From Prochilodus magdalenae (lineage: Eukaryota > Chordata > Actinopteri > Characiformes > Prochilodontidae): a stretch of DNA of 64,000 nucleotides. This document shows positions 40,501 through 64,000 of the stretch, piece after piece (positions within the stretch are counted from its first letter, which is position 1; each line of letters starts with the position of its first letter). Below the pieces are notes generated by a model. It was given only the letters and a program-made list of their open reading frames with translations, made no database searches and was not told the DNA's origin. Where the stretch lies: contig JAMWET010001240.1 of NCBI GenBank assembly GCA_024036415.1, positions 42,653 to 106,652 of the forward strand, in the 5' to 3' direction. The position numbers were made by a program, and so were the translations under genes.

Positions 40501-43500
40501 CAGTAAGAGGCCTTGGGCAAGACTCCTAACACTACACTGACCCACCTGTAACATGAGTTACCTTGTAAGTCTCTCTGGATAAGAGTGTCAGCTAAATGCC
40601 ATAAATGAGCAAACCTGAATGAACCATCTACAACTCAGAAATAAATGAGAATCATGTTTTCCACATACTTGTAGCACTTCACATACAACCGCTAGATAGC
40701 CCCATCACATCTGAGGTCAATACTAAAACAAGGACAGAAGGATTCCATGTGAAATTCCTGAGCGTTCCTCATTAAAATCCCTGTCCTGCTCACCCTCAGT
40801 CTGCTGCAGTGTCTGGCTTGTATCTTCCGCCGACCTTTCCCAGCTTTTTTGTCCAGACTGTTGGGGATGGAGGTTTGGGACAGCAAACGGTGGAACTAAT
40901 CGCATCAGCATGTGGCCTTCTTCTGAACCGCTCTGTCACCGTGGCTCCATGTCGCATGATCTCCCGCGGCCTTCACTTCAAACAGCGTGTTTAGCTTGCA
41001 CGTCAGCTGCCTAACAGAAAGAGGGTGCCGAGCGGAACAGGCGTTTACTGTGTGCGCATGTGTGCCTCTCCACGAGCATCTGTGTTTATGCGTGTGATTG
41101 TATGTGGGTGTTATTCGAAGCATCTGCCGTCGCGTTTGAGAGACGCTGCAGATGGTGCCCAGACATCTCGAATATTCCGTGCCTAACCACATGAATGATG
41201 AGACCTACACTAAGATCACTCAGGGACAAAAAGGAATTTAGGTCAGAGGCGCAGCGGCGTCTGCTGATGCTAGCGTCGAGCTAATGTCTCGGAACACCGC
41301 TTCATGAAAATGTCTGATGTTGGATGTTTAATGGCTCGGTCTAGCACAAAATGATAGGATGCACGTACAACGGAAACTCTATGGATAACATTCCCATGTC
41401 CGTTAAAAGACTAATCTCTACTTTTGATTAAAACTGGGTAGTCTTAGGTAAAGCTTACATAGGCCTTTCCCACACCAAGCCCAAGACTAATATGGCTCCT
41501 CCCACCTACACAGCTTTCACAGAACAACCCTCCCTCTGTTTAGGTCAAAGAAACCTGTTGGGCAAAAGCTAGCCACCAAGCGAAAGCTAATCTAGAACAT
41601 AAAAAAGAGTTTTCAAGCTAGCTCATCTCATCAGTCTGCCTGTTGTCTGTTTGTTCAACCAACTGTCATAACATTGTTCTGTGCTTGTGCAGCAGTAAAA
41701 TGAACAAGAACTGCAGGTACCTAAAGGCATTGCTACATAAAAGCTGAGTAGTGTTTCAGGGGCATCTATCTGTTGCACAATATGGTGGCGGTACCCATGC
41801 TTTTCCATTCTGAAAAAAAAAGATAAGCAGCCAGCAATATCGGTGTTGTTTTATTCCCATGAATTCGCTGGTCTGGAACCTTGGAACCCTTGACGCAAAG
41901 TAGCAAAAGGGCATGGCAATACTAGGGTAGCCACCCGTCCCGTAAAAAATACGGAATCGTCCTTTACTTGACAATTAAATGTTTCGTCCTGTATCAAGCC
42001 AATACGGGACGAGATTTGTTGCGTATTTCCGTTAATGTCCTTAAACGTGTTCCGTATGTCCGTAAATGTCCGATATACACATGTCACACATGATTGATCA
42101 CCCTCTCCCCCAAACAACTCACACATGACCACACCCCCCATCCTTTATTTTAATTTCTGAAGGGTGGTAACCATAGGCACCACCATCACCACGTAAAGAT
42201 GGTGAAAACAGGACAATGAGTGAAAACAATGGTGGCATCACCAATAATGACCCATCAGTGGTCCGCTGGTCCGCCATGTTGTTTTTATGGGCTGTCCACT
42301 CAAACTAAGGACCGCCAACACCCAGGTACAGAATCACTCGGCTTCGCAACCATTGGAAAAGGGGGCCCGTTGATAACCGCTTTGATAGATCCTGGGATCA
42401 TAAACTCTGCCACTTGATTGGTGGAAAAGAGGTGTGGGAGTGTGGGGTCGCCGAATGTATGTCTTGCTTCCTTTTGCTTTTTTCCTCTCAGACTTTGGCG
42501 AACGTTACATTTTAGGATTTTACTCCAAAAGAAACCATACCAAAAGGTCCATATATGGAAACCAGTTTGCACATTTTGTATTCGTTGTTTTTGTGATGTC
42601 ACAAATGTTAATGCATTTACATCTGTCATGTTCAAGGTGAACTAGGAAAGAGTCAGTTTATCATCCAGATCTTTACTATAAAGTCATGGTTTAACATCGT
42701 CTTGCTGAAGAAGACGTAGTCTGGATGGCAACATATGTTGCTCCAGAGCCTGTATATCCTCTTCAACATTAATACAGCCTCCACAGATGGGTAAATCACC
42801 CATGCCAGGTGCACTAAAGTCCCCCCAAGTACTATCACACATGCTGACCTTTGAACTGTTTGTTGATGACAAGGTTCGTCTCCTCTTTGTCCTAAAGTTC
42901 CATGCTCTCCAATGTAAGTTTCAACACTTTTCCACTGTACCTTAGTCCAGCTTAACTGAGCTCAGGCCCAGAGAAAGCGTCTGCGTTTCTGGATCTGTTT
43001 ATATCTGGTTTCTTGTGTTTGTGGAGCAGTCATGCACTTTTGTGTTCCCAAACAATGGTTTTGGCAAGCGTTCCTGATCCCATGCAGGGACTCCACTACA
43101 GAATTGTATGCAGTGCTGCCTGAGGGTCAGAAGATCCTGACAATCCAGAACCGGTTTTGGGCCTGTGGGTACAGAGTTTTAACGACTGCTGCTGCAGTCT
43201 ACCAGAGTGGCGAGCCCTCCATATCCTTCCTTCTGAAAAACTCCTCCTCTATGAGAGGCTCTTTTTATTCCCAGTCATGTCACTAACCTGTTAGCAATTA
43301 GCATAATAGCAATAATTGCTAATTATATGCTATAAATAGTTGCTTTTTAGCATTACAGAAATGTACCTGTCTTTTGCGGTCCAAGTCCCAACTGTTTTGA
43401 AACATGTTGTTGGCAACAAATTCCAAATGAGCATGTGTTTTTCAAACAGCCTTACACTTATCACACTTGCTATGTTGTCTGGGTACCATTTTCAGTGTAA

Positions 43501-46500
43501 TACAGGTTTTAACTGATTTGCAGATTATTGCATTCTGTTTGCCGTCTTGATATTTTGCATTGTGTCCCATCTTTTTGGGAAAAACCAGGTTGTAAGGGCA
43601 CCGTGAATGGTACACTGTATAAACTTTGACTTATATAATAGGCCTAGAATTTAATAAATGGGGCCTAAGTATGAAATTTACATATATAGCCAGTTTGATG
43701 TGTTCTTTCTCTTTCTGTAGGACACAACAGTTTGTGTGCTGCAGTGGTTGGGCACAGCAAGGAGACGAGTGTTTAACACGTAAGAAGCACTTTCATTATT
43801 TCCTGTTTTACTTGATATTATATAATACAGCATATATACAAAGTGTATTCAGAGACTTCATGGCCATTCATAGTTCTATGCCAGCTTGTTCAGGGAACCA
43901 AAAGGGAGTTCTACTATGACAGCTACAGGTCTTCATTCCGACGAAGCTGGAGTCCAGCAGATGAGTTGTTTAGAGATCATTCAACCAGTACAATCAGGTG
44001 TGCTACTGCTTGCTTGGAATCCAATTCTGAAGCCACACCAAGCCTGTGCAGATAAGACTGGACAGCACTGGCTTAGATGACTGCGCTACTTGGGAGTCCC
44101 AGGTGCAACTGTTTGCAGCTGAAAATGCTGGCTTCATTTAGTCTTGTTTGGCATTGGAGCCACATTATTTTCCGAAGAAAATACAGCAGAGAATAAAATT
44201 AGAACTGTGGTCCAGCTTCTTCTTTGCAACACTGAATTCCCCCTTTCTCCACCCCTAACACAAACATACAGTGTATGATCCGTGTGTGTATGATATAAAA
44301 CCTAGTCTGGGATTTCATAACAAGATGCAGGGCTGGCACTGGGTCTTCAAAAACCCTCAGAGAAGCCATACTGCCATCTTAATGTTCACTGAGAATGGCA
44401 TATAGCATCATACGTAGATATATAGATCTTTATGGATATATAGATAGTATAGCTACATTAATGTAGACAATGGAATCAAACCTTCTGTAACTTTGATTGT
44501 AGTATCTTTTGGAATACAAGCCAAGACAACACCTAGTCTTGGAATCAGTGAGAAAGTACTGAAGTGGATCAGATCAAATTTCTACTTGGAATTCTCTGGG
44601 TTTGAATCGATTTGACTTTAAAGTGCTGGTTCAATCAGGAATCACATTTACACAGCATCCACATGTCCCAACATAGTCCATGCATACATTACCACTTGCT
44701 TTAAACTGAGTTGAGTTGTATAACTGCATAACTGAGTATTGGAGACATCAAACAAACAGATTGTTTTAATAAGCTTACTGGACAAAAAGTGAGTCACTTG
44801 TGACTAAAAATACCCCAACAAGCACCCATAACAGCTGTGACTGGATTTGGCATGGACTGGAAGTCTCTGGATGGAGGCCAGAATTGTGCATGTGGGCCAG
44901 ATTTGGTGGATGCCTTCCCTGGCACAATTCCGAGGTAGATTCCCTGTAGACTGGGATTTTATCCACTGCTGGTAGACCCGTATGACCGTACACTTCCATA
45001 CACCTGCAGATTCAGCTACTTCCTTCACACTATGGTCTTTGGCCACGCCCAAATGCTCAGTCACTCCTTCTAGCCAATCATTAACATCTGCTCTGGAGCC
45101 ATTTCCACAAATAGAATGAGACACTCACTGCACTGTACCACCTCTTCTCAATCTAGGGATCCCCACAGGTATTTATAGCACTCTGGATGTACCTCTCCAA
45201 AAAAGCCAAAAATGTTCCTGTAGGAAAATCATGTTCTCATCAAACTTCTCATCGGACTGGTTAAAACTTTGTTTACAGCTTAATAATTAAATTTACGCAA
45301 AACGTAGAAAAATCTCGAATTCCTGTTTAAGCAAACCTAATTAGATTACACTATATCGTATATATATAGCGTTAGATATCATCCTGATAACGATGTGTGT
45401 TCAGTTTTTTTTAATTTAAATTTGTTTAGTGATGCTTTACTCCCTTATCCGTGAACAGTAGTCTGTTGAATCTAATTCCCATCATGTTTTCCCCCTCCAG
45501 CTCTCTGTGAGGGCAATTTCACCTGCAAGGAGAACGAGGTGTGTGTCCGGCCGAATGAATGCCGCTGCCGTCATGGGTATTTCGGAGCCAGCTGCGACAC
45601 CAGTAAGAGGCCGCTTTGTGTTACGACTTCCTTCCTCACCGACATTTTCGGAATTCTTACCATATATAGATAGAGGTGCCATGGCATCCACCTTAGCATC
45701 CACAACAACACCAGCAAACTTTCCTTACAGTCATTTGTGCTGTGCAGGATCTTTGCTTTGAAGTAGTTATACATGGAAGATATCAGGCTATGCTCAGTCT
45801 GCCGGCCCAAATCTGATTTCTGGCGTATCCAGATTGTATCCAGATTGATATTTGATAGTCTGTACAGCAATAAACCACATGCAATCCAATCGAATCTATG
45901 AAATGCAATTCCAATCAGATTTATTATGGATTTGTCTAATTGTGGCTGCTCTGGATGCTCAAACGGTGCTGGGATTCAAGAAGAGTTGAGATAAGGGCAA
46001 GACTAGACAGAGTTTGAAAGGGCGAGATGATACGCCTCCACCTTTCCTGCCTTTCCGGCTATGAAAGCCACATCACCAGCATGGCTATGACCACAGCAAC
46101 TTCCGCAGAGACGTTGGTGATTGGACACACAAATCTGATCAAATAACAGATCTGATCTGAGAAACCAATCTCCTGGTCTTCCTGCAGTCTAAACATAGCC
46201 TTAGAAACACCTACCTACATGCTTTGGCCACTTTATCAGAAACACTTACCTTGTACATGAGCCCCATTCTATTCTGTCCATCAATACAAAGAGATGATCA
46301 CTGATACACTGTGTCGCAGTAGGCTCAAGCCAATTGTAAACTCTCCCTTGTAGTCAGGGAGGGTCCCATGTTGGCTGACTACTCCATTAGCGGCTAACTG
46401 CTAACACACTCACCATATTGGCCCTGATGCTAGCAATGGCAACTTCAATGTTTGGCTTAAGGATTCTACTGAAGTCTTCAACACGTTAACTAGGATCTCC

Positions 46501-63529: not shown

Positions 63530-64000
63530 TTTTTTACGGGACGGTGGCAACCCCTAGTATTGCCATGCCCTTGCTACTTTGCGTCAAAAGGGTTCAAGGT
63601 TCCAGGACAGCGAATTTCCAGGGAATAAAACAACACCGATATTGCTGGCTGCTTATCTTTTTTTTCAGAATGGAATGAAAAGCACATCATGGGTACCGCC
63701 ACCAACTGTGCAACAGATAGATTGCCCCTGAAACATACTCAGCTTTTATGTAGCAAATGCCTTTAGGTACCCTGCCAAGTTCTGTTCTTTTACTGCTGCA
63801 CAAGCGAGCAGGACAGGATGTTATAGACAGGTCACTTGGGTTTGAAGACAAACAAGGGGTAACAAACAGGCAGACTGTAGCAGATGAGCTAGCTGAAAAC
63901 TCTTTTTTATGTTCTAGATTTAGCTTTCGCTTGCGTGGCTAGCGTGTTGCCAACAGGTGTCGGGGACCTAAACAGAGGACGAGGGTTGTTCTGTGGAAAC

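Follow-up and report, generated by a model that had tools for sequence, protein, structure and literature searches.

A fold-back palindrome carrying SCARF2 exons at a contig end of the Prochilodus magdalenae assembly is very probably a long-read artefact

The window analyzed here is a stretch of 64,000 nt from the fish Prochilodus magdalenae (assembly GCA_024036415.1, contig JAMWET010001240.1, here C1230, positions 42653-106652). Its last part consists of a palindrome that exceeds 22 kb in length and carries SCARF2 exons 2-6 in its left arm and an error-rich reverse-complement copy of that arm on the other side of a 9 nt spacer. The palindrome is present in the sequence but very probably not in the genome. 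As a whole, with the version of a missed adapter counted inside, it is almost certainly to be read as an artefact of a long read that folded back on itself.

The left arm spans 41514-52190 (plus strand), the spacer GAAGGATTA 52191-52199 and the right arm 52200-64000 (minus strand). A comparison of the window with its own opposite strand gave collinear mirror matches over most of 41515-63999, interrupted by long insertions in the right arm. The top match paired 47877-56774 with itself at 11,895 bits, far above chance. When axes from 52100 to 52300 were tried, 38 of 40 bases were paired at 52195, against 18 of 40 for the runner-up. This confirmed the mirror-ordered fold-back with a 9 nt spacer described in the initial annotation, a copy of nearly full length around one central axis. 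In the global alignment of the arms (11,913 columns, 10,414 matches, 151 mismatches), the right arm showed 636 insertion events (1,236 nt) and 82 deletion events (112 nt) relative to the left arm, and with 11,801 nt it was 10.5% longer than the left arm with 10,677 nt. No Rfam family was detected in the window at the gathering score. Exact matches to the axis hairpin GGTCAGTATGACC in the window were restricted to the two arms. With up to 2 mismatches it had five matches, a number that was reached by 1 of 100 shuffled sequences. The axis region folds, which is uninformative since every palindrome folds.

The right arm reached the last base of C1230 (106,652 bases), and no unique flank followed it. 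Position 41514, named before as the limit of the left arm, is thus the base that faces the contig end and no natural boundary. We searched the genome (1.18 Gb in 7,790 contigs) for further copies. A query of 401 bases across the axis gave, besides the two arms, only 13 short matches of up to 103 bases; a continuation past the axis on another contig was looked for with this query alone. A query of 1,301 bases around exons 4 and 5 gave, besides the arms, 40 short matches, none longer than 143 bases; in this search 40 of 1,025 first-look candidates were scored and very common words were skipped. The extra matches of both searches had 71-94% identity and were short repeat matches.

The SCARF2 gene itself continued elsewhere. 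A protein of Cyprinus carpio (P0003) served as the query for the exon searches. The region of exon 1 lay outside the palindrome at 28421-28543 on the plus strand (C1230:71073-71195 in the genome search, with one TGA within the match; 28493-28537 by tblastn). Exon 2 was found in the left arm at 43721-43779 (tblastn match 43722-43778; AG/GT boundaries set by eye), followed on the same strand by exon 3 (45501-45602), exon 4 (48816-49335), exon 5 (49619-49837) and exon 6 (50815-50943), the final SCARF2 exon ahead of the axis. The palindrome thus holds exons 2-6, as initially annotated. Exons 3-6 of the left arm joined to a single open frame of 322 amino acids, which matched a SCARF2-like protein of Clarias gariepinus (P0001) best, with 81% identity over the whole query; its best relatives of solved structure were two SCARF1 chains.

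For the portion of the protein encoded downstream of exon 6, the window contained only weak cross-matches to other EGF repeats (about 25-34% identity). Proper matches were present on the minus strand of another contig, C7687:66341-66475 and C7687:62301-62408, with 78% and 86% identity. The next SCARF2 exon (C7687:66461-66359, minus strand) started 336 nt from the end of this contig of 66,797 bases. It joined exon 6 in phase, and the sequences across this join, GFYGTYCNLTCEFGQFGVNCAQTC and GFYGTYCNLTCEFGQFGVNCAQTCPC, agreed with P0003. The gene is therefore split across two contigs, with the fold-back located at a broken end of the assembly. A second gene resembling scavenger receptors was found in the same genome on C5263 (L015, L016); it had 47% and 54% identity to the SCARF2 query in two exons and is perhaps SCARF1.

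Per alignment column, the right arm showed 10.4% insertions, 0.9% deletions and 1.3% substitutions, or 11.9%, 1.1% and 1.5% outside exact runs of at least 80 nt. For raw PacBio reads, a passage of PMC7671305 gives 8.33% insertions, 3.43% deletions and 1.07% substitutions, and for raw Nanopore reads 4.01%, 4.94% and 3.50%, respectively. The same source describes an excess of A<->C and G<->T changes for PacBio data; these changes made up 73 of the 151 mismatches, with one third expected under equal classes (binomial p 1e-4). The differences thus appear to resemble the published raw PacBio profile closely, and one arm carried a profile like that of a single raw read, qualified by few deletions and by a mosaic of clean patches. 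In 970 nt, the right-arm copies of exons 3-6 contained 40 indel events, 36 of them frameshifting, and 7 substitutions. The frameshifting indels were distributed over the copies of exon 6 (53535-53678, 8), exon 5 (54694-54921, 4), exon 4 (55228-55761, 17) and exon 3 (59260-59387, 7), all on the minus strand. The initial view of an intact gene in one arm and an arm full of indels was therefore borne out. The gain in length of about 10%, described there as even in exons and introns, was also found, and its evenness was only rough: per 100 left-arm bases, there were 4.1 insertion events in exons, whose limits are approximate, against 3.2 in the CT tract and 7.3 in the minisatellite, and 6.3 in the remaining sequence. 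One insertion burst was a run of 74 nt, nearly all C, at 63456-63529, which had no counterpart in the left arm.

The direction of change could be determined for a dispersed repeat fragment at 44901-45163 in the left arm. Its three other copies in the window (1-262, 7390-7641 and 10622-10885) served as outgroups in pairwise alignments; the fragment was labeled Tc1 initially, a putative assignment. All 13 counted right-arm insertions in this fragment were private to the right arm. A polarisation with MAFFT was dropped because indels were misplaced; it had assigned the ancestral state to the left arm in 26 substitution and 15 insertion columns and to the right arm in 5 substitution columns.

Several observations weigh against a plain raw read as the origin of the right arm. 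The deletion rate was below the roughly 3% published for raw PacBio data. The right arm also has seven exact runs of 159-222 nt, which is not typical of a raw read: when the positions of the differences were shuffled 1,000 times, the longest run averaged 58 nt with a maximum of 128 nt, and the longest perfect match in the raw PacBio set treated in the cited passage was 191 bp (PMC7671305). Exact runs of at least 80 nt comprised 1,515 of the 11,913 alignment columns. The right arm is not uniformly raw but a mosaic in which clean patches occur, and the initial description as uncorrected holds only in part: the arm is better called partly corrected. Opposite the left-arm bases next to the axis (52014-52190), 7 substitutions and one insertion of 11 nt were found instead of scattered 1 nt insertions. 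At one of five counted sites where the left arm was private, the right arm had the state of the three other repeat copies; a second such site, 45148, lay in the trimmed edge outside the counted range, and in an earlier, looser alignment the right-arm state was ancestral in 5 of 46 columns. Some of the differences thus resemble genuine variation between alleles or copies. We have no explanation for the lower frequency of insertions in exons than elsewhere. A comparison of the end of C7687 with the window revealed no unique sequence in common with the axis region; the 30 top BLAST matches were to repeat tracts. For this reason no overlap of C1230 and C7687 is visible, some sequence between them is missing, and the join of the two contigs is inferred from the order of the exons and their phase. 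The mosaic would be consistent with a read that stems from the other allele and was corrected in patches.

In the right arm directly beside the axis (52200-52440), the sequence was clean and differed from the left arm by substitutions, the 11 nt insertion and a 2 nt deletion, unlike the remaining arm. These differences may represent allelic variation.

A fold-back artefact could have arisen in more than one way. One of the two mechanisms offered in the initial annotation is a missed hairpin adapter: in a PacBio read of two normal passes, the adapter that separates them may have escaped recognition, and this would produce the same palindrome with the same error profile. We consider such a missed SMRTbell adapter unlikely. 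The passes were separated by only 9 nt, and the adapter sequence (45 nt) matched nowhere in the window when up to 3 mismatches were allowed, a result that a more damaged adapter or trimming within the read would also give. Because of the short spacer and since no adapter was found, a turn without adapter, by a strand jump of the polymerase or a snapped-back end, would fit better.

Large palindromes do exist in vertebrate genomes, and a few of the differences resemble true substitutions. A real inverted duplication at SCARF2, fixed or on one haplotype, of which only the right arm remained unpolished, is nevertheless very improbable. One would expect a genuine copy to attract reads and to be polished to the standard of the left arm. 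Moreover, the right arm halted at the contig end, SCARF2 carried on in C7687, and a tetranucleotide repeat (52438-52518; left copy 51881-51961) was perfect and had the same length of 81 nt in both arms. Among 16 isolated transitions, none was of the CpG type, although 18% of the sites have such a context; this small sample gave no support for true divergence. The specific case of a heterozygous fold-back duplication of SCARF2 exons 2-6 that was broken and under-polished by the assembler would likewise be very improbable. The open frame in one arm and the broken frame in the other could also suggest an old duplication that decayed into a pseudogene arm. Neutral decay in vertebrates produces mostly substitutions and hits both arms. 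Here, 718 indel events stood against 151 substitutions and 636 insertions against 82 deletions, 13 of 13 polarised insertions fell on one arm, and the exons had 7 substitutions and 40 indel events. Differences were thus not mainly substitutions shared by both arms; a small number of substitutions do look true. We regard decay of an old duplication as having a negligible probability.

The artefact that the initial annotation had favored is supported by the contig end, the in-phase exon on C7687, the genome searches and the PacBio-like differences. According to our model, the read of a single molecule would have followed one strand at SCARF2 to about position 52190, turned via the 9 nt loop, and returned on the complementary strand; the turn would have taken place either in the library or at the polymerase. 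The assembler would have retained this read whole and placed it at the end of C1230. The left arm, anchored by its unique flank, would then have been corrected by polishing, while the right arm would have drawn few reads and kept most of its PacBio-type errors, the clean patches excepted. On the true chromosome, position 52190 or its vicinity would be followed by an unassembled stretch of unknown length and then by the end of C7687 with the next SCARF2 exons.

The window contained further repeats. Many minisatellite arrays, whose periods range from about 31 to 289 nt, were located at 8244-9132, 12521-13383, 20820-22156, 24507-25176, 34056-34765 and 47003-48590. The last array falls between exons 3 and 4 of SCARF2 and is therefore present in both arms. 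A separate inverted repeat at 25957-26490 had arms of 189 nt (25973-26161 and 26302-26490) with 88% complementarity, 140 nt apart, and related pieces were found at 29504-29674 and 31077-31271; it looks like a fold-back transposable element.

For users of the assembly, the palindrome is a warning about quality. A gene finder could call a second, broken and inverted SCARF2 together with a truncated first one, and a false duplication of 11.8 kb would be counted. We suggest a screen that requires only the sequence: a palindrome that extends to a contig end, one arm with far more insertions than substitutions, and a following exon that lies at the end of another contig.

This class of artefact is already known. 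The passages of Ko et al. (2022) count sequencing errors among the sources of false duplications and false gene gains, and describe false duplications containing "false chimeric PacBio palindromic sequence" that is as long as a read (7-17 kb; PMC9516828). Our case shares with these the palindromic false copy of raw-read length in a vertebrate assembly; it differs in its location at a contig end, in a continuation that was followed to another contig, and in being known from the sequence alone. Passages on PacBio assembly name missed adapters and polymerase strand jumps (PMC6304105, PMC6988351). The patch phase of MARVEL handles both as artefacts of PacBio reads, and one of the assemblies concerned is that of a fish, the round goby; these passages only name the artefacts, without junction sequences that could be compared with the 9 nt spacer (PMC6304105, PMC6988351). 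The palindromes from whole-genome amplification treated by Pacasus are, in the passages concerned, also artificial, long and found in error-rich PacBio reads, and stem from amplified DNA (PMC6218980). The foldback reads in the passages of Heinz et al. (2026) likewise double back on their complement, sometimes with nothing between, and a warning of tangles in assembly graphs is given (PMC12870357). They occurred across Nanopore libraries and were virtually absent from the PacBio HiFi data examined there, whereas the error profile of our palindrome points to older PacBio reads (PMC12870357).

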